Program-made: the position numbers and the translations under genes | Notes under the pieces: generated by a model | Seen by the model: only the letters and a program-made list of their open reading frames with translations | The model's database searches: none | Told to the model about the DNA's origin: nothing | Origin: Leadbetterella sp. | GTDB taxonomy: Bacteria > Bacteroidota > Bacteroidia > Cytophagales > Spirosomataceae | Assembly (NCBI GenBank): GCA_019638185.1 | Contig: JAHBUH010000011.1 | Location: 1-64,000, forward strand | DNA length: 64,000 bases | Direction: 5' to 3' | Part shown: positions 3,921-18,556 of the stretch, piece by piece | Layout: every line of letters begins with the position of its first letter | Numbering within the stretch: position 1 is the first letter of the stretch

Positions 3921-4652
3921 ATGCACAAGCTGAAAACAAATAAGGGCAAAATGAGTAAAGTCAGTTACAAAACTTACTTTAATGACCGGCTGAAGCAGGT
4001 GCCCCTGCACGGTCAACCAACCTATCCCTTATATATTCAGGTGACTTTTGAGCGCAGGACCATCTTTTTTAAAAGCTACTATTTTGAGCTTTTTTCAAAG
4101 GCCAGGTATTACCAGTCGGCCGCAGGGGCCGGCCGCGGATCCTCTATTGAAGAAATAACGGATAAAGAAAACGAGGTGATTGACTTTATCATCCGTAAGC
4201 ATAGGGATACTTTTTCACTACACCTCTTCAAACAGGAGTATTCCTTTTATAGCAGGGATCTGTGCTACAGTATGGAAGAAAGTTTTATCCATTATATGTA
4301 CCATTTCTTCCAGGATAAAGGCATGCCGGATTTTGCCATAACCGTCAGGGAGGGTAGCAGGTATCGGATTGCTTACCATGTGGTACGGGATATGAAACAG
4401 GCACTTACAAAACCACTTTATGAAGAGCTGGTAGAAAATTCACTCTACTATGCTCCCCCCTATTTACCGTTATATGGTTTTATGCAGCAAACAAAAAAAT
4501 GGCCCATGCTTTGCCTGACAGTCATGGAATGGGAAACCGGGAATACAAAAACCGAATTTACAGCGTATCTCCACCAATACTATCCCAAAGATAATGCAGA
4601 TGAAATAATGAAACAGGTGGAGAAATGGCTGCAGGCTGTTAAGGCTCAATAA
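3921..4652 (+). CDS. hypothetical protein; N-terminus resembles a recombinase arm-binding domain
   Basis: 243 residues, not confidently recognised. Start candidates are 3921 (MHKLKTNK) and 3951 (MSKVSYKTYF). The first 60 residues carry TYPLYIQVTFERRTIFFKSY, the beta-strand pattern (pay attention to YPLYIQVTF...R) seen in the arm DNA-binding domain at the N-terminus of Bacteroidota tyrosine recombinases. No R-H-R-Y catalytic domain follows. Instead there is a helix-rich region (FIIRKHRDTFSLHLFKQEY, FIHYMYHFFQDKG) and a C-terminal amphipathic helix (EIMKQVEKWLQAVKAQ). It could be a recombinase-derived accessory DNA-binding protein or a separate family. The repeat region and the AbiE cassette follow immediately. 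Signal peptide and membrane helices are absent. Confidence 0.6.
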   Translation: MHKLKTNKGKMSKVSYKTYFNDRLKQVPLHGQPTYPLYIQVTFERRTIFFKSYYFELFSKARYYQSAAGAGRGSSIEEITDKENEVIDFIIRKHRDTFSLHLFKQEYSFYSRDLCYSMEESFIHYMYHFFQDKGMPDFAITVREGSRYRIAYHVVRDMKQALTKPLYEELVENSLYYAPPYLPLYGFMQQTKKWPMLCLTVMEWETGNTKTEFTAYLHQYYPKDNADEIMKQVEKWLQAVKAQ

Positions 4653-4829
4653 ACATACATTGGTTTTTTATGCTTCCTGTGCTTATTCTTATCCGTTGAT
4701 ATGTATTTCTTTTTCTGAATTTATTACATATTGTTACCAATCGAAGTACAATAAGACCCAAAAATTGGGTCTTATTGTACCGCAAAAGGTAAAATGGCAG
4801 ACAGCGTTTACATATCAGAACATCTTACT

Positions 4830-4945
4830 ACTCTATTCGCGATTACTTCTCAATTTCTTATTCGTCTGGTTTGGCCTAGAAAGTGGACGATAGTAAAACA
4901 ACCGAAAGCACACGTTATCTAACCGCCAGGCTTGTCTAACTGCTT
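4830..4945. repeat. repeat copy A, left part of a split interspersed repeat
   Basis: Bases 4830-4920 align without gaps to 24998-25088 with about five mismatches in 91. Bases 4921-4945 then match the start of repeat copy B at 6916. Copies A and B together reconstruct the continuous copy C (24998-25152), so the AbiE segment interrupts one repeat. On the minus strand this part is the 3' flank of the short ORF seen in copy B. Confidence 0.85.
4921..4945. repeat. left direct repeat flanking the AbiE cassette (att-like)
   Basis: AACCGCCAGGCTTG-TCT-AACTGCTT at 4921-4945 is repeated with a single-base length difference at 6916-6939. It duplicates the last codons of the 57-aa minus-strand ORF at 6913-7086, as expected for site-specific integration at a gene 3' end. 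Confidence 0.7.
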
Positions 4946-4951
4946 ACTTGG

Positions 4952-5754
4952 TCATAATTTCATCTTCTTTAACTGCCTTTGTACTTCTCTCTCCACTTTA
5001 TCGAATTCAGGCAAATCCTTTATCTGCTCGCTCATAGAGCTTTTCCAACGACCTTTGTATTGGGGTAGGCGTTCTGTTAGCTTCTTATGAAAATCTTTCG
5101 GGTTTAATCCCTTTCTTGCGCATTTTTTCCTGAACTCATCTAAGTAAAAATCAGCTTCCATCCCATGCTCTACCAATAAATACCAGATATCGTAAAAATC
5201 CCTTGCTGCCATACGCTGCATTACAGAACGTAGCTTTTCAATCAGTACCTCTTCCAGTGGGTAACATTGCAGATTATATTCTTCCAAATCCGTATAATCA
5301 ATAAAAGCGGGGTTTAAAACAGGTTCAAACTCCAGCTTTTCACTTCTGGAAATATCTACCTTTACCCGCTTATTGTTTCCTTGTCCACCCAATGGCCCTA
5401 CATAACTGATATAGAAGTTTATCCCACCATCTTCATGCTCATTATTGTCGATTATGTCAAGGGGAATATTTGCTTCGTCCCGGATATATTCAAAGGCTTC
5501 TTTAAACCATGCAAATATCTGCTCATTAGTAATCTCGCCGGTCAACAATGTAAAATCAAGGTCTTCAGAAAACCTGTAGTCCGGAAAATAGATTTTCTTT
5601 AATACAGTGCCGCCTTTGAATACAATGATTTTTGACAGCTGGTCGTGTTGAGACATACCTTTTAATATCCAGGAGAGAATATAGTCTTTCTCTATCTGCT
5701 GGTCACGAACCCCACTTCTCTTGCCTTTTGCTGTATTTCTCCGGGTTTAATCAT
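4952..5754 (-). pseudogene. AbiEii-type nucleotidyltransferase toxin, frameshifted
   Basis: The uninterrupted part (start 5656) reads IIVFKGGTVLKKIYF and FSEDLDFTL: the nucleotidyltransferase core GG-T-x9-SEDLD of the AbiEii/DUF1814 toxin. It continues to the helical tail with ARDFYDIWYLL. The true start is the ATG at 5754, which overlaps the antitoxin TGA (ATGA). From there MIKPGEIQQKARE runs on, then the frame is lost at a run of four C on the + strand (5710-5713). The correct continuation GVRDQQIEKDYILSWILKG lies in the frame of the downstream part. One missing base in the homopolymer explains everything: adding it gives 267 residues. AbiEii blocks growth by nucleotidyl transfer to RNA or GTP-linked targets; here it is inactive unless slippage or a sequencing error is involved. 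Confidence 0.88.
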
Positions 5755-6572
5755 GTGTAAATAGCTGATTTAATTGTTTCTGTTTCCAAATTTTGCTGGA
5801 TACCCCATCTGCTTATCATTTTTCCTGACTTGGGTAGTTCAGTATCCAATACAACATAAGAGGCCGTCTTTTCCTTTAATAATTTTTCTATAATCGGGTT
5901 ATCAATTTCTAACAGTTCCAGGAGAAAGCCAAGCCGCTTAATAACTGCCTGAGATTTAAATCTTTTTGCGTATTCCAGCAGCTTATCAAATTTAATTTGG
6001 TTTGCAGAAATGCCGATTGCTCTTGCAATCTCAACGATGCCTCCCGCATAATCAGGCTTAAAAAGACAGTCAATAATCGTTTTTTCAAGATCTGAGCATT
6101 GCACTTTATGGAAGCTGTCAATCCAGATTTTTTTCATCCCGAAGAAGTGATCCGGGTTATGGTATATAAACTGGAAAGGAACGTTTTTGATCTTAATTAC
6201 TGAAGGTCTGAGTTGCCTGGAAACTACAATTTGCTCTTTTAGTGACGGCTGTGTAATCAAATTATGAATTTGCAACGCAGAATAGTAGCCAATATAGTAT
6301 TGGGCATCTTTTACAATAAATTCAGGTATCAGGTGCCAGTCAGGCATAAATGTATCCGCATCTTGTTCATAGGGAATGATATAATAGACCCCCTCTTTTA
6401 AGCGCATTAAAAGACCTCTTTTGGTCATATCGCTTAATAATTCCTTTACTGCGCTTTCGCCTGATTCGGGTAAAGCCTTAAAAGCCTCTGCATAACTAAA
6501 GCAAAATCTGTCTTGTTCATGAAAATAGGACAAGAGTTCATTTGACTGTGTAGAGATGTACTTATTTCTCAT
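5751..6572 (-). CDS. AbiEi-family antitoxin/transcriptional repressor
   Basis: 273 residues. The N-terminal winged helix spans about residues 8-65 (FSYAEAFKALPES... LLSDMTKRGLLMRLKEGVYYI), the fold by which AbiEi antitoxins bind their own promoter. The central and C-terminal part (YYIGYYSALQIHNLITQP; CSDLEKTIIDCLFKPDYAGG; AIKRLGFLLELL-type segment) is the AbiEi antitoxin domain. The last residues GKMISRWGIQQNLETE fit Bacteroidota members. It overlaps the toxin gene by 4 bp, as in type IV toxin-antitoxin operons. Two inverted repeats upstream are probable operators for negative autoregulation, which is known for AbiEi. The frame is intact although its toxin partner is broken. Confidence 0.9.
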   Translation of the reverse strand: MRNKYISTQSNELLSYFHEQDRFCFSYAEAFKALPESGESAVKELLSDMTKRGLLMRLKEGVYYIIPYEQDADTFMPDWHLIPEFIVKDAQYYIGYYSALQIHNLITQPSLKEQIVVSRQLRPSVIKIKNVPFQFIYHNPDHFFGMKKIWIDSFHKVQCSDLEKTIIDCLFKPDYAGGIVEIARAIGISANQIKFDKLLEYAKRFKSQAVIKRLGFLLELLEIDNPIIEKLLKEKTASYVVLDTELPKSGKMISRWGIQQNLETETIKSAIYT

Positions 6573-6580
6573 AACATCAT

Positions 6581-6599
6581 AGTCAGGTTAAACCTGACT
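6581..6599. promoter_or_regulatory. operator 1 of the AbiE operon
   Basis: A perfect inverted repeat with 9-bp arms around one central A: AGTCAGGTT-A-AACCTGACT. It lies 9 bp upstream of the AbiEi start. AbiEi antitoxins are known to bind paired inverted repeats upstream of their gene. Confidence 0.8.
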
Positions 6600-6665
6600 A
6601 CAATGATATGAAAAACAATCTATTTTGATATACAAATAGAGTGGTTTTTTCAATTATAGTTAAAT

Positions 6666-6684
6666 GGTCAGGATAAACCTGACT
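6666..6684. promoter_or_regulatory. operator 2 of the AbiE operon
   Basis: GGTCAGGAT-A-AACCTGACT is a second copy of the palindrome with two changes in the left arm. Its centre is 85 bp from operator 1, about eight helical turns, which would suit cooperative binding. Confidence 0.75.
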
Positions 6685-6747
6685 GCATAACTACGAAAAA
6701 TAAATTTTATAATGCCTCAATAATTGCGAACGCACTGTATTTGCAAT

Positions 6748-6870
6748 GTTCCGCAATCATTCATATTCCCAATTTTAACAAAAGATAAAAATGGAAATTC
6801 TAAGTTTTTAGCTACTGGATTTCCCATCAGCAACAGTGGAAATTTTGTAACAGCAAAGCATGTTGTATGA
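6748..6870 (+). pseudogene. remnant of a trypsin-like serine peptidase (His-motif fragment)
   Basis: The open frame 6748-6870 encodes about 40 residues. It contains KFLATGFPISNSGNFVTAKH followed by VV and a TGA. The pattern ATGFxIS-x-GxFVTAKHVV is the stretch around the catalytic His of trypsin-like/DegP-type peptidases. No start codon, Asp or Ser motif is present; the frame closes right after the His. It sits on the plus strand inside the AbiE cassette, between the operators and repeat copy B, so it is probably the edge of a gene cut by the rearrangement. Confidence 0.55.
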
Positions 6871-6912
6871 TCTTAGGTGAATTGCATCATAATAGCATCA
6901 CGATTGCATCAT

Positions 6913-7086
6913 TTAAACCGCCAGGCTTGCCAACTGCTTTAAATCCGATAAGAAAAGATTCGAAATCTGTACAGGCAGGGCGACATCACAGGACAAATGA
7001 GATTCCGCAGTTTGCGTCATTTGAGAAGATAGTTTATCTTCCTGGTGCTGAATTTCCGATAATATTTCGTTCAACACGATTTCCAT
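6913..7086 (-). CDS. small 57-residue ORF whose 3' end is repeat copy B
   Basis: Minus-strand ATG at 7086, TAA at 6913-6915. The protein is MEIVLNEILSEIQHQEDKLS..., ending NLFLSDLKQLASLAV. The N-terminal heptad-like helix recalls small accessory proteins of Bacteroidota mobile elements, but I do not recognise a family. Its last 30 codons are the repeat (6916-6979). The final about 24 bp are duplicated at 4921-4945 on the far side of the AbiE cassette, as though the cassette integrated at this gene's 3' end and restored it. Too short to be sure it is expressed. Confidence 0.4.
   Translation of the reverse strand: MEIVLNEILSEIQHQEDKLSSQMTQTAESHLSCDVALPVQISNLFLSDLKQLASLAV
6916..6979. repeat. 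repeat copy B, right part of the split repeat, including the right direct repeat
   Basis: 64 bp aligned without gaps to 25089-25152 with five mismatches (about 92% identity). The first 24 bp (6916-6939) are the right-hand direct repeat of the AbiE cassette. Together with copy A it makes one complete repeat. Confidence 0.85.
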
Positions 7087-7242
7087 AGCTTTGACGTTTA
7101 GATATTGGGACTATTTGTTTCGGAACTACATCTTCGTTGATTTGCCAAAATTTGGAAATAATATCGAACCTATTATCACATAGTGTCCCCATATTGGGAA
7201 AGATTTACTCTAAATCGCTCATTCTATGATATATTAGATACG

Positions 7243-7281
7243 AAAAAAGGGCTAAGTGTCTTCCGACTTAACCCTTTTTTA
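7243..7281. terminator. bidirectional rho-independent terminator
   Basis: A-run, then GGGCTAAGT, an 8-base loop, ACTTAACCC and a T-run. The stem has 9 pairs with one mismatch and poly-A/poly-T on opposite sides, so it works in both directions. It lies downstream of the minus-strand aldo/keto reductase gene. The rest of 7087-7401 holds nothing else I can name. Confidence 0.8.
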
Positions 7282-7401
7282 TTAAATTTGCAGTAATGAT
7301 TTACAAGGTAATCAGATGAAAGCGAGTGCAGTAAGCACCATTACTAAATCGTTACTGATAACACTCCCGGTTCTTGTAAACACTACTCTTTATTAACCTG
7401 T

Positions 7402-8460
7402 TTAATCTGTATTAATCTTTTCATAAAACTCCGGCGTTGGGTTTAACGATTTATTTTGCCATTGGTGCCAGTAAGGATAAATAGGTACCTCGTTACTCGC
7501 TTCATCCAGTTTTTTAATTTGATCCGTTGTCAGGTTCCAGCCTATAGCACCAAGATTTTGCTTCAATTGCGCTTCATTTCTCGCACCGATAATAATACTT
7601 GAAACAGTGGGCCGTTGCAGTAACCAGTTCAGAGCTACCTGCGATACGGATTTGCCTGTTTCCGCGGCTATATCTTCCAAAGCGTCTGTAATCTTAAACA
7701 AATGTTCCTTTTCGGCAACTTCCATAGGAACAGGGCTACCGCCTGCTGCTACACGACCGGATGTTGGCCATTCTTTTTTCCTGCTGAACTTTCCACCCAA
7801 TCTTCCGCCTGCCAATGGCGACCATATCAAAGATCCTACTTTTTGATCCAGTCCCAAAGGCATCAGTTCCCATTCATATTCCCGGTTCAGCAACGAGTAA
7901 TACACCTGGTGAGCAACATACCGGTTCCAGCCGTACTTTTCTGAAATTCCTAATGATTTCATCAAATGCCAGCCGGAAAAATTGGATACCGCGATGTAGC
8001 GCACTTTACCACTTTCAACCAAATCGTCCAGCGTTCGCAACGTTTCTTCTACCGGCGTATTGCCATCAAAACCGTGCATATGGTAAATATCGATATAGTC
8101 TGTTCCAAGACGTTTCAGGCTGCCTTCAATCTGGTTTAAAATATGGTAGCGTGAAGATCCCTGGTTGTTCGGTCCGTCACCAAAAGTAAATGTCGTTTTA
8201 GTCGAAATAAGCAGTTCGCTGCGTTGCTTTCCGGCTATGGCTTTTCCCAACACTTCTTCGGCAAGCCCATCTGAATAAATATCAGCTGTATCAAAGAGAT
8301 TGACACCTGCTTCAAGGCAAATATCAATTAGCTTTTTGGCTTCATCAACCTGGGTAGATCCCCAGGCTTTAAAAAAATCGTTCCCTCCGCCAAAAGTGGC
8401 CGTTCCAAAACTCAGCACGGGCACTTTCAATCCCGATGCTCCTAAAAATCTGTATTCCAT
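7402..8460 (-). CDS. aldo/keto reductase family oxidoreductase
   Basis: 352 residues, full length. The (beta/alpha)8 barrel starts MEYRFLGASGLKVPVLSFGT. Catalytic tetrad residues are visible: Asp and Tyr in LFDTADIYSDG (about 58 and 63), Lys in LLISTKTTF (about 88) and His in IYHMHGFD (about 128). The C-terminal NADPH-binding element SSIIIGARNEAQLKQNL is present. These enzymes reduce aldehydes and ketones or oxidise alcohols with NADP(H) in the cytoplasm. The substrate is unknown; the best general resemblance is to the YajO/Gfo-type group. It is the last gene of a long minus-strand set and one of the few intact ones; neighbours include glyoxalase, quinol-monooxygenase and propeller genes. Confidence 0.92.
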   Translation of the reverse strand: MEYRFLGASGLKVPVLSFGTATFGGGNDFFKAWGSTQVDEAKKLIDICLEAGVNLFDTADIYSDGLAEEVLGKAIAGKQRSELLISTKTTFTFGDGPNNQGSSRYHILNQIEGSLKRLGTDYIDIYHMHGFDGNTPVEETLRTLDDLVESGKVRYIAVSNFSGWHLMKSLGISEKYGWNRYVAHQVYYSLLNREYEWELMPLGLDQKVGSLIWSPLAGGRLGGKFSRKKEWPTSGRVAAGGSPVPMEVAEKEHLFKITDALEDIAAETGKSVSQVALNWLLQRPTVSSIIIGARNEAQLKQNLGAIGWNLTTDQIKKLDEASNEVPIYPYWHQWQNKSLNPTPEFYEKINTD

Positions 8461-8471
8461 TATCTTAAATT

Positions 8472-8989
8472 TTAATTATTTGAATTAGGGTTAAAACTAA
8501 AAATATAATATGGCGGCTTTCTCAAATCTTTTCCTTTGCGCATAAAAGGCATATTGGAGATCTGGGCTACCACCAGGTGAAAAGTACCGTCGAATCAATT
8601 TCAGCCAATTTGGGTGCGCCGGGCACTCTGTCCTTCCCAAATGCTTCGCCTGCGTCAGTTACCCAGAGATGGTTGTCGTCACGGTTGATGTAAAGCGAAT
8701 TAAGAGAAACAAAAGCTTTTTTGGGGTCTTTACCCGGCTGCCAATTGTTCCATTCATTACCGGGAAAGGCAACTTCCTTTCCGTCTTTTAATTCAACAAG
8801 TGACGGATTGTTACCTTTTTCCCAACGCGAGAAGTCGGCAAAAATCCGCTTATCATTGGAAACGGCTATACCGTTCCAGTTGCGTTCTGTGGTGATGGCA
8901 ACTACATTTAGTTGAGGAGCCCGCTGTTGAGCAACTGCTATTGCTGAGGTACCTAAAGACATCAACATTCCAATTATTGGCTTCATCAT
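8472..8989 (-). pseudogene. major royal jelly/Yellow-family protein with the middle deleted
   Basis: The open frame (8567-8989) gives 140 residues: signal peptide MMKPIIGMLMSLGTSAIAVAQ, then the family start RNWNGIAVSNDKRIFADFSR and LWVTDAGEAFGKDRVPGAPK. It then hits a stop. In another frame, at once, the family C-terminus appears: VVAQISNMPFMRKGKDLRKPPY, ending at a TAA at 8472-8474. The intact neighbour (9010-10128) ends GKDLRKPPYLVVRIKV. So about 200 codons were removed, and the join is out of frame. Confidence 0.85.
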
Positions 8990-9009
8990 TTTTTTGCATT
9001 TTCTGTTAA

Positions 9010-10128
9010 TTACTCACTCACTTTTATCCGTACCACCAGATAAGGCGGTTTCCGTAAATCTTTTCCATTGTTAAATCCCGGCAAACGGTTCCATTGCCCC
9101 AATGTCACATAGACATAGCCGTTCCGGTAAGCCAGTCCGTCGGGCCATACAAAATTTTCTCTATCATGAGCAAGCAACTTATAAGTTCCGTTGGCCGAAC
9201 GCTGGATAATAGACTGTTGCTCAAACGCGCCAAAATAAATATTGCCCTTCTCATCTTCGGCAAGTCCGTCGCAAGCAGGATGCTGACCTTCATTTTTTAC
9301 CGCTTCGGCGATTTGTTGGCTGGAGGTCTTAAAATCGCTCAATAAATCCGTGGAAATGCTATAGAGATTTCTGCCGGTAATGGTCGTCCAATACAATGTC
9401 TTACTGTCGGGGCTCAATGCGATGCCATCTGCTCCGCCATTGGGAAATGACTGATTTTTGAAGTCGTAAACGTGTGGCTTACCTTCCAGGAAGCCCATAA
9501 ATTGAAGCTCCGGCGAAGTTGAATAATGATTAAGCAACACTTCCCGGCAGTTACCCGAAGCTATATCTATAACCACCAGGGAATAATGCTCTCCGAAACC
9601 TGAATTCGCAATATAAATCCTTCCTTTTTCGCCGTGTGTCAGGTCCACACGCAGGTCATTGTAATGCGCAGCATCTGAAAGCACCGGTTTTGGAATGACC
9701 AGCGTTCGTAGTATTTTTTTTGAACGGATGTCAATGGCCACTACTTTGGCGGCTCCTTCCGGGATTTCCTTTTGCCCGGAGCATTTGCCATCGTCCAATA
9801 CCCAAAGCACATCGTTCTTGTCCATATAAATTCCGTGCGGTGACACCAGCCATTCTTTATAGGGTTTTGTTGATGGATACACATAATCCTTATTTGGAAA
9901 AGGAACAGGCTTGCCATCGATCAACTCAGCAAGTGCAAATTCCTTGTGATTATCTGCGTGGCGGGGGAAACCAAGAAACACCCGGTTATCCGAACTTACC
10001 GCAATGCCCGACATATCGGGGTTTGGCGGTGATATCCTCGCTATAGTTTCATAATTTTCCTGTGCCATTGCTAATGTAGTTTTTATGAGCAGCATAATGA
10101 TGCCTGCCGCCTTTATCAATTGTTTCAT
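9010..10128 (-). CDS. secreted major royal jelly/Yellow-family beta-propeller protein
   Basis: 372 residues, full length. A signal peptide (MKQLIKAAGIIMLLIKTTLAMAQ) is followed by the propeller: MSGIAVSSDNRVFLGFPRHA, LWVLDDGKC, YNDLRVDLTHGEKGRIYIAN, GADGIALSPDSKTLYWTTI, CDGLAEDEKGNIYFGAFEQQ, WPDGLAYRNGYVYVTLGQW and GKDLRKPPY near the end. In insects this family includes Yellow and royal jelly proteins, which bind or convert dopamine-type catechols; bacterial members have no established activity. It is exported to the periplasm. It follows a VOC gene by 5 bp on the same strand and precedes a broken paralogue, so it is a tandem duplication. A role with catechols or quinones is inferred only from context. 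Confidence 0.9.
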   Translation of the reverse strand: MKQLIKAAGIIMLLIKTTLAMAQENYETIARISPPNPDMSGIAVSSDNRVFLGFPRHADNHKEFALAELIDGKPVPFPNKDYVYPSTKPYKEWLVSPHGIYMDKNDVLWVLDDGKCSGQKEIPEGAAKVVAIDIRSKKILRTLVIPKPVLSDAAHYNDLRVDLTHGEKGRIYIANSGFGEHYSLVVIDIASGNCREVLLNHYSTSPELQFMGFLEGKPHVYDFKNQSFPNGGADGIALSPDSKTLYWTTITGRNLYSISTDLLSDFKTSSQQIAEAVKNEGQHPACDGLAEDEKGNIYFGAFEQQSIIQRSANGTYKLLAHDRENFVWPDGLAYRNGYVYVTLGQWNRLPGFNNGKDLRKPPYLVVRIKVSE

Positions 10129-10133
10129 AATCT

Positions 10134-10493
10134 TTATTTTCTATATTCTATCAACTCAAACCTATTGCCGAACGGATCACGGAAAAAACACCGTTCCCTT
10201 CCTTCAATCTTTGATGAATAGCTGATAGTGATGTCTTCTTTTTCCAGAAACTTTTTGGCTGCCGTTAAATCGTTCACCACAAAAGCGGGATGACGGTCAG
10301 AATTAGTCTGGTGGCCGTCTTCTTCCCGAAGGTGCAATTGTATATTGCCTATTTCATACCAAATGGCACCGTTGGGATGATTGCCCTCTATTTCCTTTAG
10401 CTGCAATACTTGTCCATAAAATGCTCGGGCAGCTTCTTTCGCTCCTGGCGGAATAGTTATCAAAATATGGTCTACGTGTTTAAAATCAATCAT
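10134..10493 (-). CDS. VOC-family (glyoxalase/dioxygenase superfamily) protein
   Basis: 119 residues, one VOC module pair: FKHVDHILITIPPGAKEAARAF at the start (metal-ligand His), AIWYEIGNIQLHLREEDG in the middle, FVVNDLTAAKKFLEKED and the closing CFFRDPFGNRFELIEYRK, where the Glu is the usual last metal ligand. VOC proteins bind a divalent metal and act as glyoxalases, extradiol dioxygenases or resistance proteins. It sits between a PPC-domain gene and an MRJP gene in a tightly packed minus-strand operon. The substrate cannot be told. Confidence 0.88.
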   Translation of the reverse strand: MIDFKHVDHILITIPPGAKEAARAFYGQVLQLKEIEGNHPNGAIWYEIGNIQLHLREEDGHQTNSDRHPAFVVNDLTAAKKFLEKEDITISYSSKIEGRERCFFRDPFGNRFELIEYRK

Positions 10494-10514
10494 ACCAGGT
10501 TATTTAAAACAATT

Positions 10515-11024
10515 TTACTCTTTTTCGAAATCATAAAAATTCAATCCTACCGCTTCATTTTTGACTTTTATGACTTTGCTGCTGATAGGATAAATAAAAA
10601 ATTCTCCCGCACCTCGAATTTTTGCATCAAGTAAGTGTCCGGCCAATGCCGTGTAATCCTTTCTGCCCAATGTAACGTGAAGATGCAGCATTGGTTTTCC
10701 CTGTACTTCCGAGATATTCCCGGAAAGGTTACTGATTTCCATCTGTTCATTAAAAGTCTTATCCATATATTTTTTGGTAACAGGATCAAAAAAACGCAGC
10801 GTGGCCTCGTTGGTTGCACCGATACCTGTAATCTGACCGGCCGGAATTTTTTGCGCTATCACAAAGTCAGTTAATGCATCCAAAACACTGCTTTTATCCG
10901 CAACACTTACAATATAAGTGCTGTCCACTTTACGGGCGATCCAGTTATTCCCTTTTAAATTCTGTGCATTCATATTGGCTGTTATTAACAGGATGATGGT
11001 TATTAATACTACTATTCTTTTCAT
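10515..11024 (-). CDS. exported PPC/DUF296-domain protein
   Basis: 169 residues. The N-terminus MKRIVVLITIILLITANMNA is a clear signal peptide. Residues about 33-165 are a complete PPC (DUF296) domain: SYIV-type first strand (STYIVSVADKSSVLDALTDF), GQITGIGATNEATLRFFDP, LSGNISEVQGKPMLHLHVTL with the HxH pair, and GHLLDAKIRGAGEFFIYP. PPC domains are usually cytoplasmic and trimeric, fused to AT-hooks in plants; here the domain is secreted, which is unusual. His-x-His may hold a metal. It lies in the same minus-strand set as VOC and MRJP genes. Confidence 0.85.
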   Translation of the reverse strand: MKRIVVLITIILLITANMNAQNLKGNNWIARKVDSTYIVSVADKSSVLDALTDFVIAQKIPAGQITGIGATNEATLRFFDPVTKKYMDKTFNEQMEISNLSGNISEVQGKPMLHLHVTLGRKDYTALAGHLLDAKIRGAGEFFIYPISSKVIKVKNEAVGLNFYDFEKE

Positions 11025-11037
11025 AACAGATACTTTT

Positions 11038-11165
11038 TTATTCCCAGTCTTTTCCCGGCTGCGGTTTCCAACGGCGTAAAGTCAAAACTTTGCGGCTTCA
11101 ATATCCGGAACCGTAATGCCAATGTGATCTATGGCACGGACTTCTGTTTTTGGGTAATTCATCAT
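11038..11165 (-). pseudogene. VOC-family gene reduced to its two ends
   Basis: MMNYPKTEVRAIDHIGITVP-DIEAAKF followed by TGA is the first 27 residues of a VOC protein (AIDHIGITVPDIEAA is diagnostic). It starts at 11165, overlapping the upstream MRJP stop (TAATG). Immediately after, in another frame, comes a tail LTLRRWKPQPGKDWE and a TAA at 11038-11040. The body of the gene is missing, as in several neighbours. Confidence 0.7.
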
Positions 11166-12292
11166 TATTTCATTTTGTTAACGGGAATTTTCAGCACCTG
11201 ATAAGGACCGTGGCGGAGATCTTTGCCTCCGTTTAATCCGGGCGCTCTGTGCCATTGCCCGATTGTTACATAAATAAATCCGTTACTGAATGCCATTCCA
11301 TCCGGCCAGATCAGACGGGGATCATACGCAGTAAGAGCAACATTTCCTTGAATATCTTTTTGAATGATACTGTAGCGTGATGCATCACCGAAATATAAAG
11401 TACCGTCCGCATCCACGGTAATACCTCCGTTAGAAACCGTTTGCCCTTCCCAGTGGATAGCCTTTTTAATTTCCTCTTCCGGCATTGCAAAGTTGCTGAT
11501 CACATCCGTCGGAATACTGTAATAATCGGGTTTTGTGGGTATTGTCCAATACAAGGTTTTAAAGTCCGGACTGAGCTCTATGCCATTTACACCACCCTGG
11601 GGCATTGTGGGTTTTTCGTAGTTCAATACGTGAGGTTTCCCTTCTACAAAAGTCATAAATCCTTTTTGAGGCGACACTTCGGGTGCATCCCGGAACAATT
11701 CCCGCAATTTTCCGGTGGCAACGTCTGCTACGATAATAGATTGGTCGGGCCTGGCAAATCCATTGTTGGAAATATACACCGTACCTTCCTTACCGTGGGT
11801 TGGATCAAAACGAAGATCATTGAGCTGTATGGTTTCCCTGAAAAATGGTTTAGGAATGGGAATGTTTCTGACGATCTTTTTTGTATTGATATCTACTGCC
11901 ACGATTTTGGTGCTGCCATCAGGAATTCCATCTATACCGGCTCTTTTGCCCTGATCTAATATCCAAAGGGTATTTTTATAGAGCGTAATGCCTAAAACAG
12001 AAACCAGATGGTTGGGCAGATCTATGTTTACATTTTCATTTATTTTTTCGTTGGGAAATGCCTTGGGCTTACCATCCACCACCTCTACTACAGAGGGGTA
12101 AGAATGGTTCATACCGCCACGTGGCAAGGCAAGAAAAATTCTGCCTGTTTCGCTCACGGCAATACCTGCCGGCTCTACGTCTGCTAAGCTCACTGCAACG
12201 CTGATGCCTTTGGGATATATTGCGGGCATCTGTGCCTTTGTATCAAGAATTCCTGTTGCCATAATGATGAATATTAATAATTTCTTTTTCAT
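11165..12292 (-). CDS. secreted major royal jelly/Yellow-family beta-propeller protein
   Basis: 375 residues, intact. Signal peptide MKKKLLIFIIMATGILDTKA; propeller blades with PAGIAVSETGRIFLALPRGG, LWILDQGKRAGIDGIPDG, LNDLRFDPTHGKEGTVYISN, GVNGIELSPDFKTLYWTIPT, GGITVDADGTLYFGDASRYS, WPDGMAFSNGFIYVTIGQWH and GGKDLRHGPY. It is clearly paralogous to the genes at 9010 and 21165 but diverged from both. Its ATG overlaps the stop of a cupin remnant (ATGA), and its stop overlaps the start of a VOC remnant, so the old operon order was cupin-MRJP-VOC-PPC-VOC-MRJP-MRJP. Function in bacteria is not established; periplasmic small-molecule binding is the likely role. Confidence 0.9.
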   Translation of the reverse strand: MKKKLLIFIIMATGILDTKAQMPAIYPKGISVAVSLADVEPAGIAVSETGRIFLALPRGGMNHSYPSVVEVVDGKPKAFPNEKINENVNIDLPNHLVSVLGITLYKNTLWILDQGKRAGIDGIPDGSTKIVAVDINTKKIVRNIPIPKPFFRETIQLNDLRFDPTHGKEGTVYISNNGFARPDQSIIVADVATGKLRELFRDAPEVSPQKGFMTFVEGKPHVLNYEKPTMPQGGVNGIELSPDFKTLYWTIPTKPDYYSIPTDVISNFAMPEEEIKKAIHWEGQTVSNGGITVDADGTLYFGDASRYSIIQKDIQGNVALTAYDPRLIWPDGMAFSNGFIYVTIGQWHRAPGLNGGKDLRHGPYQVLKIPVNKMK

Positions 12293-12524
12293 TTTTTCCA
12301 GATTTTGGTAAGCCCTGACATCGTACCGGTCAAAGGATCGGTATCGGGTAGCTTAAGTTTTGCTATGCGATTGTCAGCAGCGGGAATTGGCTATTGGGAA
12401 TATTGCCATCATCCTTAAAATAATAAGTTTGAGGTTCTGCTGCTGTCATAGCGGATAATTGTCGGGTTAAAAAAACTCCTGCAATGGCCAACGTACTATT
12501 TTTTATGAATATTCTTCTTAGCAT
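12289..12524 (-). pseudogene. YjlB-like cupin gene reduced to its two ends
   Basis: The ATG at 12524 gives MLRRIFIKNSTLAIAGVFL, then PQTYYFKDDGNIPNSQFPLL and a TAG at 12363-12365. YFKDDGxIPNS is the characteristic start of YjlB-type cupins. The next bases encode, in another frame, KLPDTDPLTGTMSGLTKIWK and a stop; SDPxxGxxxGLxKIWK is the usual C-terminus of the same family. The cupin barrel itself, roughly 120 residues, is missing. The final stop overlaps the next MRJP ATG. Confidence 0.75.
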
Positions 12525-12544
12525 AACCGTTCATTTTAGCAAGT

Positions 12545-12829
12545 TCAGAGCTTGTGCATCAGAAAGACTTCCATCGGTTTTTCCAAAAGCGATTGGGCTT
12601 TTTCTTTAAACTCTACCAGGTGATCATTGGCGAGATGCTTTTCCAGCGCTTCCCGGCTTTCCCAGTTTTCGTAGAAAAAGAAAACCTGTTCTTCCGTTTT
12701 CCCCTGGTGCAAATCATACTGGATGCAGCCGTCTTCTTTTAAGGTGGGCGCCACCAGCGATTGCAGCAAAGCCTTGGTTTCTTCAATCTTCGATTGCTTA
12801 GCGGTCATTTTTGCGATTACGGTCAACAT
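12545..12829 (-). CDS. ABM-domain putative quinol monooxygenase
   Basis: 94 residues, the normal length for YgiN-like antibiotic-biosynthesis-monooxygenase proteins. MLTVIAKMTAKQSKIEETKA, CIQYDLHQGKTEEQVFFFYE and NWESREALEKHLANDHLVEF form the dimeric ferredoxin-like ABM fold. Characterised homologues oxidise quinols without cofactor. The gene lies between the cupin remnant and the amidohydrolase on the minus strand. It is complete and adds to the quinone/electrophile flavour of the region. Confidence 0.88.
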   Translation of the reverse strand: MLTVIAKMTAKQSKIEETKALLQSLVAPTLKEDGCIQYDLHQGKTEEQVFFFYENWESREALEKHLANDHLVEFKEKAQSLLEKPMEVFLMHKL

Positions 12830-12856
12830 TATTTAATATATTTAAATGGTGGATAT

Positions 12857-13834
12857 TTATTTCAACGGGCCTTTGCTCACTTCTTTTCCGGCTTTATACA
12901 CCGCATAGACAGACCGGGTCTGTTTAATATCGGATGCAGGATTGCCCTTCAGGATAAGCAGGTCGGCCGTTTTCCCTTTTTCAATGGTACCGAATTTCTT
13001 ATCTATCCGTAATACTTGGGCAGCGTTCTTTGTAGCGACGGCTATTGCCTGAAGAGGTGTCAGGCCTGCCTGCACCATCAGTTCCAATTCCAGGTGCTCG
13101 CTGAAGCCTTGTGCACGAAGCGGCATTGCTCCGCTATCAGTTCCCATAGCGATTAAGACACCGGCATCGAACAGTTTTTTAAGATTTTTTAAACCCGTTT
13201 CAAATGCTTTTGTATTTTTTGCGTAAGCCGGTGAGTTTTTCAGATCATTTTGATACTTCTCAGAGGTAATCATTTCATATACACCTGGTTCCAAAGAAGC
13301 TTTGAAAAACGGATCGTTAATCCATTCGGGTTTTCTGGCATAAATATACGCAAACTCATCCAAAGAAAGTGTCGGGATATAGGTGATACCTTTTGCCTTT
13401 ATCTGCTGTGCCAATGCATCATCTATTATACTGTCAAGAACACTGTGCCCGATTACATCCACACCATCGGTAACCAGTTGCCGTGCGTCGGAAAGGTAGT
13501 ACACGTGTGCTGCTACGCGTAGATTTCGCTGATGTGCCTGACGAATGATTTCCTTGTATATTGCAGGATCTATTTTTTTGTATTTACCGCCGAAGTCATC
13601 CACCCAAATTTTCACAAAATCCGGTTTAAGCTTTGCAAGACTGTCCATTTGTGCTGCAACCTGTTCAGGTTTTTCAGGACGATACACATAATCCATTGCA
13701 AATTCTATCGGAGGGGCACCCTTGGGAACACCAAAACCATCAGCTGATTTTTGCTTTTGACCCTTATTACACGATATTACCGCCAATGCAATACCGGTAA
13801 AGAATGTGGTCTGTATCAATTTTTTTAAATCCAT
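12857..13834 (-). CDS. amidohydrolase-family lipoprotein lacking its N-terminal metal-binding segment
   Basis: 325 residues in one frame. Lipoprotein signal MDLKKLIQTTFFTGIALAVI ends SC. Then, at about residue 33, the sequence jumps straight to DGFGVPKGAPPIEF and KLKPDFVKIWVDDFGG, which in intact family members (about 430-480 residues) comes after the first barrel third. The HxH metal-binding motif (usually PGLIDAHVHL) is therefore missing. Later motifs remain: RVAAHVY, DVIGHSVLD, GTDSGAMPL and the C-terminal GTIEKGKTADLLILKGNP. This looks like an in-frame internal deletion of about 120 residues, so the enzyme is probably inactive although the frame is open. Confidence 0.75.
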   Translation of the reverse strand: MDLKKLIQTTFFTGIALAVISCNKGQKQKSADGFGVPKGAPPIEFAMDYVYRPEKPEQVAAQMDSLAKLKPDFVKIWVDDFGGKYKKIDPAIYKEIIRQAHQRNLRVAAHVYYLSDARQLVTDGVDVIGHSVLDSIIDDALAQQIKAKGITYIPTLSLDEFAYIYARKPEWINDPFFKASLEPGVYEMITSEKYQNDLKNSPAYAKNTKAFETGLKNLKKLFDAGVLIAMGTDSGAMPLRAQGFSEHLELELMVQAGLTPLQAIAVATKNAAQVLRIDKKFGTIEKGKTADLLILKGNPASDIKQTRSVYAVYKAGKEVSKGPLK

Positions 13835-13862
13835 AATATACTGTTTTTTTAGTGTAAAAAAT

Positions 13863-14647
13863 TTATTTCTCCCCCTTTAAAGACAAGGAGACCGGAGTTT
13901 TGTTTAGCAGCAGTATAAAACCCATAACTGAAAAGATTAATAACTGCAAACAAACCGCGTTCCGTTGCCCCCATTGCCAAAAGAACAGTCCGCTGTACGT
14001 TCCCAAGGCGCCACCCAGAAAATAGGAAGTCATATAGATGGTATTGATGCGGCTGTGCGCCGTTTCATCAAGGGTATAAATGACGGCCACATTGGTTACC
14101 TGTATTGCCTGCACTCCCAAATCGAGCAACAGCACGGCAACAACCACCGCCCATAACTGTCCGCGATAGAAATACGAAATAACGATTGTGCCGATAACCA
14201 GCATCACCGCCAAGAGACGGAAACGGTTAGCACCTTCCGGATCCGCCAGTTTTCCAAACATCGGCGCCAGTAAAGCTGAAAATATCGCGAGAACACCGAG
14301 CGGAGCAAATCAGGATAGCTACCTTTGAATACCGCTGTGATATCCGGCAAAGACCTGTACAGCACAAGGGAAGTTGCCAGTACCATAGCGGCACCAATAC
14401 CGTAAACATAACGCCAGCTGAGCCATTCCGCAATAAACCCACTGAAGACCCTTGCCGCAAGTATGCCCGTTAATATACCCATAAAAATAATGCCTACAAT
14501 TTTCCCTTTATTGTGTGGCGACATATGGGCGGCCATCTCTTTCAGCAAAGGCTGGTTATAATAGATATTGGCTACGCAAACCCCTGCTGTAACGGACATC
14601 AGTAAGGTTTGCCAGGCAGATGTTTCATTTTTTTCTCTTTCCATCAT
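13863..14647 (-). pseudogene. MFS transporter with two internal deletions and a frame change
   Basis: The N-terminal frame (14204-14647) starts MMEREKNETSAWQTLLMSVT, then VANIYYNQPLLKEMAA (helix 1), and jumps to MSPHNKGKIVGIIFMGILTG, which is helix 5 of intact relatives: helices 2-4 are gone. After SYPDLL the frame is lost. The other frame continues APLGVLAIFSALLAPMFGKL and then helices 10-12 to 13863. So there are two separate losses, one in frame and one not. Intact members have about 390-400 residues; only about 240 codons remain. It is divergent from the AraC gene at 14728. Confidence 0.82.
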
Positions 14648-14694
14648 ACAAATTTCCTTATTGTTTTGATGATGGACTTGGTATATATCACGGC

Positions 14695-14702
14695 TATTTT
14701 TG
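14695..14702 (+). promoter_or_regulatory. -7 promoter box of the AraC gene
   Basis: TATTTTTG matches TAnnTTTG and lies 25 bp before the ATG at 14728. A TTG at 14678-14680 could be the -33 element, though slightly close. Confidence 0.55.
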
Positions 14703-14727
14703 TACTTTTATCCTAAATAAAAGGTTT

Positions 14728-15579
14728 ATGAAGAAATTACAGTTTGAACCTCTTGTTATCCACGATTTTGAAGAGAATGCGTTTCATCTGCCTGTACACA
14801 GCCATACGTATTATGAATTGGTTTATATCCATAAAGGGAAGGGCATTCATTTGTTAAATAACGGCCGGCTGCCTTATAAAAGCGGTGATCTGTTCATCAT
14901 TAGTCCGGGAGATGAGCATTATTTCGAAATCGCCAAAAGCACCCGTTTTACGTTTATAAAATTTACGGATGATTATTTCTCGGGACATAAGATGTATTAT
15001 GAGGCCGACGCGTTCATTTCCCTTGCGCCGGAAAATATTATGCGAAATAAATTGCTGAAAGAGGTAAAGCTAAAAATGGATGAGCCCTGTATTTCCATTC
15101 TAAAAAATACTGTAGAGAACATTGTAGCTTATAATTGTAAAAAAGAAATTGCCCGTTCGCCGCTGATGTTTTACCAGATACTTTCTATTTTAGGATTAAT
15201 CAAAGAAGCAGCGGCTAAACTCAATATCAGGATTGATAATGGCCAGCCCGAAAAGGAAGAACTGATTTCGTATATACATCAGCATATTTATGAACCTCCT
15301 TTGATACAGATTAAAAATATCGCTGCTCATTTTGCGATTTCTGCCACTTATTTCAGTGATTATTTCAAGAAGAAATTCGGGGTAAGTTACCGCAATTATA
15401 CCAACGATTACCGGCTACAAATCATTGAAAAACGTCTGGCTATACCAACGATTACCTTAGGTCAGATTGCCGATGAATTCGGATTTACAGACGAAAGTCA
15501 CCTGAATAAATTTTTCAAGACACATAAAGGAATTGGTCCTAAAGATTATCGTTCAAAGGTACAACAAACGTGCTTGTAG
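14728..15579 (+). CDS. AraC-family transcriptional regulator
   Basis: 283 residues. The cupin-like sensing domain is at the N-terminus (FHLPVHSHTYYELVYIHKGK, then YKSGDLFIISPGDEHYF). The AraC DNA-binding domain is at about 185-283: IKNIAAHFAISATYFSDYFK is helix-turn-helix 1 and LGQIADEFGFTDESHLNKFF is the conserved second one, ending KTHKGIGPKDYR. I chose the ATG at 14728 because it follows a -7 box and gives a normal AraC N-terminus; a longer reading starts at 14620 inside the divergent MFS gene. It probably controls the divergent MFS/amidohydrolase operon. Confidence 0.92.
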   Translation: MKKLQFEPLVIHDFEENAFHLPVHSHTYYELVYIHKGKGIHLLNNGRLPYKSGDLFIISPGDEHYFEIAKSTRFTFIKFTDDYFSGHKMYYEADAFISLAPENIMRNKLLKEVKLKMDEPCISILKNTVENIVAYNCKKEIARSPLMFYQILSILGLIKEAAAKLNIRIDNGQPEKEELISYIHQHIYEPPLIQIKNIAAHFAISATYFSDYFKKKFGVSYRNYTNDYRLQIIEKRLAIPTITLGQIADEFGFTDESHLNKFFKTHKGIGPKDYRSKVQQTCL

Positions 15580-15654
15580 TTACCAGGCAACACCTCTAAA
15601 ATATAAGTTTAGATGAACTTCGGTCATTAAAGCGAAATGTATCATAGAAAAATC

Positions 15655-15699
15655 CCGAAAAGTTCACCATTGCAGGTCTTTCAAAAAATCGCATCTTTG
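15655..15699 (+). promoter_or_regulatory. promoter with shared regulatory motif, copy 1
   Basis: CCGAAAAGTTCACCAT at 15655-15670, then GCAGGTCTT and a CATCTTTG -7-like box. The same three-part arrangement occurs at 16103, upstream of the next gene. It precedes the HTH gene at 15720, so autoregulation is likely. Confidence 0.65.
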
Positions 15700-15719
15700 T
15701 TTTATTTTTATTCAACCAA

Positions 15720-16097
15720 ATGAGGGACGCAAACAAAGAGATTTTGAACAGAAGCAAAGAAATTACCGAAAAGTATTTTCAGTTTTTGGATCAACATATT
15801 GCGGATGTGGTTTCGGGGACTGTTGACGAATTTATGGAAATAAACCAGATTGCAAGCGAGTTGTTTCTGTCGCACCAGCATTTGACCTATACTGTACAAA
15901 AAGAAACCGGAAATCATCCCTGCCATTTCTATGATCTGAAAATTATTGATGAAGCCAAAAGAATGCTGACAGAAACAGACAAACCCATTTCCGAAATCGC
16001 TGGGATATTGACGTATGACCCGTCCAATTTTTCAAAATTCTTCCGGAAATTTGTAGGGCAGACACCCGGGCAATTCAGAAAAGAAAACAAAAAATAA
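15720..16097 (+). CDS. short AraC-type DNA-binding protein
   Basis: 125 residues made almost only of an AraC-type helix-turn-helix pair: FMEINQIASELFLSHQHLTY and PISEIAGILTYDPSNFSKFF, followed by RKFVGQTPGQFR. A short N-terminal helix (MRDANKEILNRSKEITEKYF) replaces the sensor domain. Such sensor-less AraC proteins are complete genes in Bacteroidota rather than fragments. Its promoter motif reappears before the downstream gene at 16197, so it probably regulates itself and the membrane-protein/NTF2/antiporter set. Confidence 0.88.
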   Translation: MRDANKEILNRSKEITEKYFQFLDQHIADVVSGTVDEFMEINQIASELFLSHQHLTYTVQKETGNHPCHFYDLKIIDEAKRMLTETDKPISEIAGILTYDPSNFSKFFRKFVGQTPGQFRKENKK

Positions 16098-16102
16098 AAG
16101 TT

Positions 16103-16147
16103 CCGAAAAGTTCACCATAAAATAAATGCAAGGTCTTGCCACCTTTG
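16103..16147 (+). promoter_or_regulatory. promoter with shared regulatory motif, copy 2
   Basis: CCGAAAAGTTCACCAT at 16103-16118 is identical to 15655-15670. It is followed by GCAAGGTCTT and CCACCTTTG, in the same order as copy 1. It drives the operon starting at 16197. Confidence 0.65.
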
Positions 16148-16196
16148 TCCTATCAATTTTTAAAACATTTAAAATCCAATAAAATGGCGAGAAACG

Positions 16197-16544
16197 ATGA
16201 TACTAAAAATAACCAACACCGTTCTTATTCTTTTTGCCGTATTTATGGGCATCAAACAAGGTTGGGCTATGCTTACGGCAAAACCCGAAATGCTGGAAAT
16301 GTTCGGCAAATGGAATTTCAGTAAAAATGCCGTTATTATTAATGGAGCAGTAACCCTATTGGCTTCTGTTCTGATTCTGTTTCCCAAAACATTTTTATGG
16401 GGAAATTTTTTGATGGCGGCAGGCATACTGATGATTATCTGCCTCCAATTAGTAAGTAAAGATTTAAAGGGTGCTGCGATAGAAATTCCCTTCTTATTGC
16501 TGAACCTGATTATCATTTATCTGCAGCACCCGCTCAGGAATTGA
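16197..16544 (+). CDS. small four-helix membrane protein, DoxX-like
   Basis: 115 residues with hydrophobic segments ITNTVLILFAVFMGIKQGWA, NAVIINGAVTLLASVLILFP, FLWGNFLMAAGILMIICLQL and IPFLLLNLIIIYL. KQGWAML and the overall four-helix layout resemble DoxX/SURF4-like proteins of Bacteroidota. Substrate and partner are unknown. It is the first gene after regulatory copy 2 and is followed three bases later by the NTF2-like gene, so they are co-transcribed. Confidence 0.78.
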   Translation: MILKITNTVLILFAVFMGIKQGWAMLTAKPEMLEMFGKWNFSKNAVIINGAVTLLASVLILFPKTFLWGNFLMAAGILMIICLQLVSKDLKGAAIEIPFLLLNLIIIYLQHPLRN

Positions 16545-16547
16545 CAA

Positions 16548-16871
16548 ATGGACTTAAAAGCAATAACCAACGAAAATGTAAGAAAAGCAATCGAAGCTTT
16601 GCAGGCAAATGATAAAAGAAACTGGTACTCCTACTTTACAGACGATGCCGTTTTTAGCGATGACGGACGGGTTTTAGGTTTCAAATCGTTTTTTGACAAT
16701 GCCTTCAACCACAAAGAGAAATTTCTTGATATTGACAAAGTGGAAAACGGAGGAAAAGATATTTATGGGAATTTCGAAGCAGGACAATGGGGCACTTTTC
16801 GAGTTTTTTTCAAGTTCCACGAAGGTGCTGATGGAAAATTTAACCGCTTGGATATCGGACAGGCAAATTGA
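16548..16871 (+). CDS. NTF2/SnoaL-like protein
   Basis: 107 residues: NVRKAIEALQANDKRNWYSY-FTDDAVFSDDGR is the helix-plus-strand start of the NTF2-like cone fold, and GQWGTFRVFFKFHEGADGKF plus the final RLDIGQ are typical strands. It is cytoplasmic; members bind small molecules or act as isomerases or hydrolases. It follows the small membrane protein by three bases and precedes the antiporter. Confidence 0.82.
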   Translation: MDLKAITNENVRKAIEALQANDKRNWYSYFTDDAVFSDDGRVLGFKSFFDNAFNHKEKFLDIDKVENGGKDIYGNFEAGQWGTFRVFFKFHEGADGKFNRLDIGQAN

Positions 16872-16904
16872 CAATTGCGGATCGACGATTATTTGTTGAA
16901 ATTC

Positions 16905-16950
16905 GCAGTCCATAACTCGTAATTCGTAAATTGTAATTCGAAATTCAAAA
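16905..16950. repeat. short AT-rich repetitive spacer
   Basis: Repeated and inverted AATTCG / CGAATT / AATTCG units between the NTF2-like gene and the antiporter. Such spacer repeats are common in Bacteroidota intergenic DNA; no function is assigned. Confidence 0.4.
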
Positions 16951-16954
16951 AAGC

Positions 16955-18556
16955 ATGCACCATACACTACTCTTGGTTCTGGGTTTGTTATTAGCCGTGA
17001 TGTTGCTGGTAATGCTCGCGCAACGAATAAAAATTGCTTATCCCATTTTTTTGGTCATAGCCGGATTGGGTATCAGTTTTATTCCGGGCATACCGCAATT
17101 GCATCTCAATCCCGAATTGATATTCCTGATTTTCTTGCCGCCGCTTTTGTACGAAGCAGCCTGGTACACTTCGTGGAACGATTTCTGGAAATGGAAACAT
17201 TCTATTGCCTCATTGGCTTTTGGGTTGGTATTTCTCACTTCACTGGCTGTAGCTTATGCTTCTTCCGCTTTCATTCCAGGTTTTACTTTGGCATTGGGAT
17301 TTCTGTTAGGCGGTATTGTATCGCCACCTGATGCCGTTGCGGCCGCAACGGTTCTGAAGGGAATGAACGTTCCCAAAAGATTGATGACAATATTGGAGGG
17401 CGAAAGTTTGGTAAATGATGCCTCTTCTTTAATTGTTTTCAAGTTTGCTTTGGCAGCCGTTTTGACCGGAACTTTTTCAATGCAGGAAGCTACAGGACAG
17501 TTTTTTCTCGTGGCAGGAATGGGTATCGTAGTGGGATTGATTGTAGCGCATATTATGTATGTCATCCATCGTTTTTTACCAACTACCCCGGCTATTGACA
17601 GCGCATTAACCGTCATCACACCGTATCTTATGTTTTTGGCGGCAGAGCAGTTTCACTATTCAGGAGTAATGGCAGTGGTTAGCGGTGGTTTATTTATGTC
17701 GTACCGTTCGCACGAAGTATTTAAGACAGGTAGCACTCGCCTGAATATGCTGGGCGTATGGAATACGATGATTTTTGTGATGAACGCACTCGTATTTATA
17801 TTGATAGGTTTGGAATTACCAGAGATAATAGACGGATTGGGCGATTATTCCATTGCCGATGGTATCAAATACGGTTTAATCATCAGTGCTATTACCATTG
17901 CTTTGCGGTTTTTATGGGTGTATCCTGCGGCATATATTCCGCGTTGGATAAGTGCTAAAGCAAGACAAGACCCTTCACCCGGCTGGAAAGGTCCATTAGT
18001 TGTAAGTTGGGCAGGAATGCGTGGTGTAGTTTCTTTGGCAACAGCACTATCCATTCCAATGTTAATGACAGACGGCACTGCTTTTCCGCAGCGAAACCTG
18101 ATTATATTCATCGCTTTTGTGGTCATATTCATTACACTTGTTTTTCAGGGATTGACATTACCTTTTGTTATCAAGCTCATTAAGCTGGAAGAGATTGATG
18201 ATATTCTTCCCGAAAAAGAACAACAGGCAGGTATACAATTGCGGTTGAACAAAACAGCATTAAAACTGCTGAACGAAAAATATACTGCTGATATCAAAGA
18301 AAATGAGTTAGTAGGATTATATAAATCCAATCTTGAAAGCGATATGCAGAATATAGAACAATCATTGGAAGACAATGATACCGAAGAATATCAGGAAATA
18401 GAACGTTATCACGAAATATTAGCACATGTTTATGCACAACAACGTAAAGAACTGTTTCAGCTTCGTAAAGAAAAATTTTTCAGCGATGAGGAAATAAGAA
18501 AAGCTGAGTTGCAATTGGATTTAATCGATTTGAAAATTACAGGTGCAGGACATTAG
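16955..18556 (+). CDS. Na+/H+ antiporter, CPA1 family
   Basis: 533 residues. Twelve or so membrane helices fill the first 400 residues. SPPDAVAAATVL (about 123-134) and EGESLVNDASSLIVFKFALA (about 149-168) are the CPA1 signature, with the paired Asp residues that bind and translocate cations. SWAGMRGVVSLATALSIPM is the conserved late helix. A charged cytoplasmic tail (about 415-533), rich in Glu and Lys, follows and may be regulatory. The protein exchanges Na+ (or K+) for H+ in the inner membrane for pH and salt balance. It is the last gene of the AraC-motif operon. Confidence 0.93.
   Translation: MHHTLLLVLGLLLAVMLLVMLAQRIKIAYPIFLVIAGLGISFIPGIPQLHLNPELIFLIFLPPLLYEAAWYTSWNDFWKWKHSIASLAFGLVFLTSLAVAYASSAFIPGFTLALGFLLGGIVSPPDAVAAATVLKGMNVPKRLMTILEGESLVNDASSLIVFKFALAAVLTGTFSMQEATGQFFLVAGMGIVVGLIVAHIMYVIHRFLPTTPAIDSALTVITPYLMFLAAEQFHYSGVMAVVSGGLFMSYRSHEVFKTGSTRLNMLGVWNTMIFVMNALVFILIGLELPEIIDGLGDYSIADGIKYGLIISAITIALRFLWVYPAAYIPRWISAKARQDPSPGWKGPLVVSWAGMRGVVSLATALSIPMLMTDGTAFPQRNLIIFIAFVVIFITLVFQGLTLPFVIKLIKLEEIDDILPEKEQQAGIQLRLNKTALKLLNEKYTADIKENELVGLYKSNLESDMQNIEQSLEDNDTEEYQEIERYHEILAHVYAQQRKELFQLRKEKFFSDEEIRKAELQLDLIDLKITGAGH

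Follow-up and report, generated by a model that had tools for sequence, protein, structure and literature searches.

How can a run of neighbouring bacterial genes lose their middles while both ends of each gene remain readable and intact genes persist between them? A gene cluster of Leadbetterella sp. raises this question. The cluster lies in the stretch analysed here (the window), which comprises the initial 64 kb of contig C3 (JAHBUH010000011.1) of a 4.22 Mb genome (G000; 39 contigs, 95% complete). A preliminary description of this DNA named five such genes between positions 8472 and 14647, encoding an MRJP protein, a VOC protein, a cupin, an amidohydrolase and an MFS transporter. Comparison with intact homologues confirms the observation, with four deletions mapped in the MRJP (MRJP-a), amidohydrolase and MFS genes and the losses in the VOC (VOC2) and cupin genes recognized through distant homologues; the interpretation attached to it is partly supported. 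The mapped junctions all carry a few bases of direct homology. The account that we consider probable, with appreciable reserve, is that an operon of dispensable, laterally shared genes has been eroded by RecA-independent short-homology deletion.

Mapped deletions and their junctions

The operon comprises, in order, MFS, amidohydrolase, ABM, cupin, MRJP-c, VOC2, PCC, VOC1, MRJP-b, MRJP-a and AKR, all on the minus strand and heading toward AKR, with an AraC gene divergent from it. Four deletions (D1–D4) were placed in a three-row alignment of the window with two other copies of the cluster, L020 and L014, and a fifth (D5) by comparison with the genome G008. D1 was read against L020, MRJP-a being gone from L014, and each of D2, D3 and D4 is seen against both relatives.

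The MRJP-a remnant (8472–8989, minus strand) has lost 574 bp at 8589/8590 relative to the intact L020 gene, which encodes 364 aa; the bases TCA are common to both ends of the missing segment in L020, and two bases are common if only those still visible in the window are counted. D2 removed 390 bp, that is, 130 codons, from the amidohydrolase gene (12857–13834, minus strand; Pfam Amidohydro_1) at 13737/13738 and leaves the frame intact, as had been described. L020 and L014 both contain the lost segment; the L014 protein is 455 aa long, and its HVH (HxH) motif, at residue 92, falls in the part that was lost. CAT is common to both ends of D2 and, in L020, sits in an imperfect repeat that agrees at 8 of 9 bases, as read by eye. 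The MFS gene (13863–14647, minus strand; Pfam MFS_1), which is intact in L014 (405 aa) and open over the stretch translated in L020, was indeed hit twice: D3 took 154 bp at 14297/14298, with GA in common, and D4 took 255 bp at 14537/14538, with GCCATC in common.

Just beyond this span, D5 removed 804 bp at 16194–16198, with ACGAT common to both ends in G008. It takes nearly all of a gene that we presume to encode an SDR protein, leaving its first codons (16184–16198, plus strand), which run into a DoxX-like gene at 16197 (DoxX_2 by Pfam). G008 keeps the SDR gene between a short AraC gene and the DoxX-like gene, and L020 retains its start, up to the end of the L020 contig. The short AraC-type HTH protein (15720–16097, plus strand; Pfam HTH_18) is also present in G008 and L020.

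Thus, all five mapped junctions carry homology, of 3, 3, 2, 6 and 5 bp for D1 to D5, respectively (D1–D4 by L020, D5 by G008), and fit short-homology deletion with one repeat copy kept. Against L014, the homology at D2 and D3 is the same, and D4 reads as 0 owing to one differing base. Under a null model of uniform placement in L020, with D1 counted as 2 bp, the chance of homology this long is 0.165, 0.073, 0.166 and 0.004 for D1 to D4, respectively, and the combined Fisher p for these four is 0.0026, with D4 contributing most. A search of the whole G000 assembly with L020 as the query gave six matches, all in the window and none to the parts missing at D1–D4; this DNA has been lost, not moved.

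For VOC2 and the cupin, intact copies were not found in the close relatives, and the losses were sized against distant intact homologues, so that their junctions are not placed to the base. The VOC2 remnant (11038–11162, minus strand) keeps approximately the first 25 and the last 13 residues of a protein of about 176 aa, with about 0.4 kb lost; set against an intact VOC protein of 176 aa, its N-terminal piece corresponds to the start and its LRRW to the end, and the C-terminal end is found also in L020. The cupin remnant (12289–12524, minus strand) has lost about 0.37 kb: intact homologues measure 169–227 aa, and against the best aligned ones, of 191 aa (L124 and L125), the N-terminal piece matches up to residue 47 and the C-terminal piece covers residues 173–191.

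Intact genes lie between the remnants, as previously noted. MRJP-b (9010–10128; Pfam MRJP), VOC1 (10134–10493; Pfam Glyoxalase), the PCC-domain protein (10515–11024; Pfam PCC) and the gene at 12545–12829, which we take to encode an ABM-like monooxygenase, show no stop and no frame change against L020. MRJP-c (11165–12292; Pfam MRJP), which is lost in L020, was compared with L014, to which it is 90% identical in DNA, and its frame is open. In L014, the PCC gene is truncated to an open reading frame (ORF) of 91 aa and the ABM gene is cut. The last gene of the operon, at 7402–8460 and presumably encoding an aldo/keto reductase (AKR), is likewise intact, with DNA matches of 87% to L014 and 95% to L020, no stops and few nonsynonymous changes; all these genes are on the minus strand. 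On the plus strand, what appears to be an AraC-type regulator (14725–15579, within an ORF at 14620–15579) has no stops and a single window-specific nonsynonymous codon.

Copies of the cluster in other genomes

A search of genome contigs with MRJP-b yielded eight loci, two of which are close, namely L014 (Chitinophagaceae MAG-386) and L020 (a metagenome-assembled genome of Niabella sp. from a reactor). L020 matches window positions 7407–16198 at 93–95% DNA identity, with gaps (about 94% overall), and L014 matches 7409–15581 at 83–90% (about 86% overall). Outside the cluster, with window 1–20000 as the query, matches to the two reach at most 88% over about 160 bp and otherwise 65–84%. The much greater similarity of the cluster than of the DNA around it suggests lateral transfer, and the cluster appears to have moved between genomes.

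No other high-identity copy was found among 222 genomes of the family (query 7400–16200); at E 1e-40, 92 of these matched in parts, at no more than 80% identity apart from the genome itself. Among 390 genomes drawn from the order, searched with 10500–12850, the genome itself was the sole match, and no copy of the cluster was found in a plasmid search with 9010–12850 or in a viral contig search with MRJP-c.

Both relatives carry deletions of their own, such that large deletions, differing from one genome to the next, affect the same cluster in all three. From L020, about 1.46 kb of window sequence is missing (the VOC2 start, MRJP-c and the cupin), with a short imperfect duplication adjoining the join, and L014 lacks 1030 bp in the MRJP-a region, 341 bp across PCC and VOC2, and 414 bp across the cupin and ABM genes. 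Across the three genomes, four of the nine mapped deletions (D1–D4) lie within one gene and five (D5, the one in L020 and the three in L014) do not.

Lesion spectrum and mechanism of loss

Between the window and L020, the gaps inside genes measure 574, 390, 154 and 255 bp, along with one of 3 bp; the remaining small gaps fall at gene ends, past them, or where the alignment begins or stops. There are no stops in the 708 remnant codons, nor in the 1511 codons of intact genes compared with L020. Thus, the small frameshifts and stops of point-mutation decay were not found in the aligned genes (the cupin and VOC2 are not alignable in this way), and the preliminary description rightly held that such decay is not the cause.

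The ratio of window-specific nonsynonymous to synonymous codons is 17:26 in the remnants versus 15:63 in the intact genes (p=0.019), which, taken alone, would suggest some relaxation. However, on the L020 side, where the broken genes are intact, the ratio is 12:15 (p=0.80 against 17:26), so the excess can be a difference between genes and gives no clear sign of long decay; MRJP-a, with 16 codons polarised, weighs little in these counts. With no small lesions in the aligned genes and no clear excess of change in the broken ones, the deletions are probably late on the branch of the window.

Among Salmonella pseudogenes, according to PMC2916853, 346 carry a single lesion: 141 are short deletions that take no more than 20% of the gene, 131 are stops and 2 are start changes, with insertions at 17%; by subtraction, about 13 (3.8%) would carry a deletion of more than 20% of the gene. 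As far as that text goes, the two cases are alike in lineage-specific loss of function and in deletions outnumbering insertions. They differ in that small deletions and stops are commonest in Salmonella, whereas the five broken operon genes here have lost 28–78% of their length (the VOC2 and cupin figures being estimates). The contrast is notable but is not a test, given the other organism and a locus that was not chosen blind.

Elsewhere on contig C3, 78 of the 173 ORFs of the G008 stretches were matched at E of at most 1e-10, and none of the 78 has an internal loss of at least 20 aa in G000. Two have one stop inside the G000 match, such that point lesions may occur there, and five are covered, each in one piece, for under 85% of their length. 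Most of these genes being constrained, the screen bounds the background rather than matching the cluster; it is blind to whole-gene loss, and the SDR gene of D5 enters it via a paralogue alone. In window 2850–6984, 95.5% identical to G008, the indels are of 1–7 bp, one of 38 bp and one of 85 bp, and none reaches 150 bp.

Under the reading that we favour, an operon that apparently moved between genomes would lose its dispensable members by deletion between short direct repeats of 2–6 bp, through polymerase slippage, template switching or Ku-free end joining. In E. coli, deletions at less than 25 nt of homology are RecA-independent, according to the part of PMC2621351 that treats them, and the homology of 2–6 bp at each mapped junction is compatible with deletion of that kind. 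The likeness to the slippage and template-switch deletions covered in that part lies in the few bases shared by both ends, the one copy kept and the DNA between lost; the difference is that several fall here within a single stretch of 7.6 kb in which small lesions were not seen, and that RecA independence is deduced. Likewise deduced are lateral transfer, a relaxed requirement for the genes that were lost, and a series of separate events instead of a single one.

Deletions left by Ku and LigD end joining would have only a short homology at their ends, or none. A profile search for Ku (PF02735) gave no matches in G000 or G008, and Ku is present in G039, G040 and G238; both relatives with deletions of their own have it. 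Because Ku was not found in G000, which sets the present case apart from Ku/LigD joining, classical non-homologous end joining is unlikely in the genome of the window, allowing for its 95% completeness. The mechanism is most likely ordinary and known, and what is unusual is the concentration of deletions. The locus offers a natural example, with junctions resolved to the base, in which a bacterium with no detectable Ku loses genes chiefly through short-homology deletions of intermediate size.

Several points weigh against this account. The incompleteness of the assembly makes the absence of Ku less than certain. All five broken operon genes have lost more than 20% of their length, with no small lesion in the three that can be aligned, which is odd for ordinary decay, and two other remnants in the window, a Flavodoxin_2 gene and an SRPBCC-like one, do carry point lesions; a deletion-only spectrum in one stretch stays odd under the favoured reading. 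The junctions themselves are uneven, the 2-bp homology of D3 being a one-in-six chance and D4 scoring 0 against L014, and D1 as well as the right side of D5 hang on one relative each.

The concentration of losses could also stem from a single event in which the polymerase, while the cluster was being copied or taken up, skipped forward several times at microhomologies; this would produce all deletions at once and leave intact genes between. The seven deletions in 7.6 kb (five mapped, two unmapped), the 2–6 bp homologies, the lack of small lesions, the absence of internal losses of 20 aa or more among the 78 ORFs, and the rate in the broken genes, not detectably above that in L020 and so fitting a late loss of all, agree with such an event. 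Microhomology-mediated break-induced replication (MMBIR) and fork stalling and template switching (FoSTeS), as described in PMC2621351, resemble the present case in a microhomology of few bases and in clustered junctions but differ in that no duplications, inversions or inserts are seen in the printed junctions at D1–D4. Furthermore, the deletions of the relatives lie elsewhere and point to repeated separate losses, and the remnants are not datable singly; on balance, a single MMBIR-like event seems unlikely. A stronger version, in which one pass of six or seven forward jumps at homologies of 2–6 bp within 8 kb, made by a polymerase copying incoming or broken DNA, would be a bacterial, deletion-only counterpart of chromoanasynthesis, with the same cluster prone to such loss in three genomes, appears quite unlikely. 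Searches of an open-access library listed no bacterial case of template-switch clustered deletions, although one may nevertheless have been published. Strains with partial deletion sets, if found, would allow the order of loss, and one event or many, to be read directly.

Selection could instead have filtered the lesions, if downstream operon genes, AKR and others, matter, such that polar frameshifts and stops were purged and deletions leaving little untranslated sequence survived. The minus-strand operon does head toward AKR, which has 2 window-specific nonsynonymous versus 20 synonymous codons, and the amidohydrolase deletion is in frame. Yet, of the four deletions mapped in the operon, only those of 390 and 255 bp preserve the frame, those of 574 and 154 bp shifting it, and we regard this explanation, too, as quite unlikely.

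The missing segments might exist in the organism and have been lost in contig building, as the preliminary description allowed, or a rare variant might have been chosen, and undecayed remnants are equally expected of such an artefact. For a join, however, short-read assemblers require some 20 bp at least, and the joins here are at 2–6 bp; the aligned genes contain no small gap that shifts the frame, the D1–D4 segments are in no other G000 contig, and two separately deposited assemblies carry other deletions in the cluster. An artefact of assembly or population is accordingly improbable, and assembly error as such appears unlikely from the sequences at hand.

Finally, a dedicated mechanism for removing the interior of genes while leaving their two ends, as had been proposed, would describe D1–D4, VOC2 and the cupin but is barely credible: with random placement, deletions of 154–574 bp fall within one gene with a probability of 0.40–0.78 each and all four do so with 0.11 (VOC2 and the cupin entered at remnant lengths), which, with genes filling nearly the whole cluster and five of the nine mapped deletions not within one gene, removes the need for it.

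Other remnants and neighbouring sequences

The Flavodoxin_2 gene at 22259–22806 is split by stops and a frame change (frames read by eye; Pfam pieces) and reads as ordinary point decay. The SRPBCC-like remnant at 25254–25615, previously listed as probably the same kind of scar, turns out otherwise: its frames, also read by eye, show a frameshift, a stop and an internal loss, that is, older mixed decay, and positions 25382–25615 gave no Pfam match. The lesion contrast, 7:0 versus 1:5 (p=0.005), carries little weight, being post hoc, with these two remnants read by eye and the two unmapped deletions counted. Positions 18732–19004 and 24313–24543 carry fragments of two further genes, one NAD-binding/NmrA-like and one Abi_2.

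Window 2850–6984 is about 95% identical to G008 at 2.11 Mb and apparently colinear, and contig C3 at 45–58 kb and beyond 84 kb is 71–76% identical to G008 at 2.14–2.20 Mb; the higher identity of the former, compared with that further along the contig, perhaps reflects recent exchange. At 70231–71661 of contig C3, an ORF of 476 aa faces one of 315 aa in G008 and is 483 nt longer. At window 20358–20470, G008 is about 1.5 kb longer, with two ORFs, one of them presumably peptide-deformylase-like, and the window shows an overlap of about 113 bp between the two matches.

Window 4830–7005 holds an AbiE toxin-antitoxin pair (AbiEii, 4952–5656; AbiEi, 5751–6572) flanked by 14-bp direct repeats (4921–4934 and 6916–6929). 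The flanks recur at 24998–25177, where there is a single repeat and the AbiE genes are absent, as in a site that is empty or has been emptied. At 7268–7429 lies a dispersed repeat of about 110 bp, in which a small open frame was read by eye; it has no Rfam match, as is the case for the whole of window 1–30000; further copies are present at positions 85063–85205 of contig C8 of the same genome, on three contigs of G040 and in G039.

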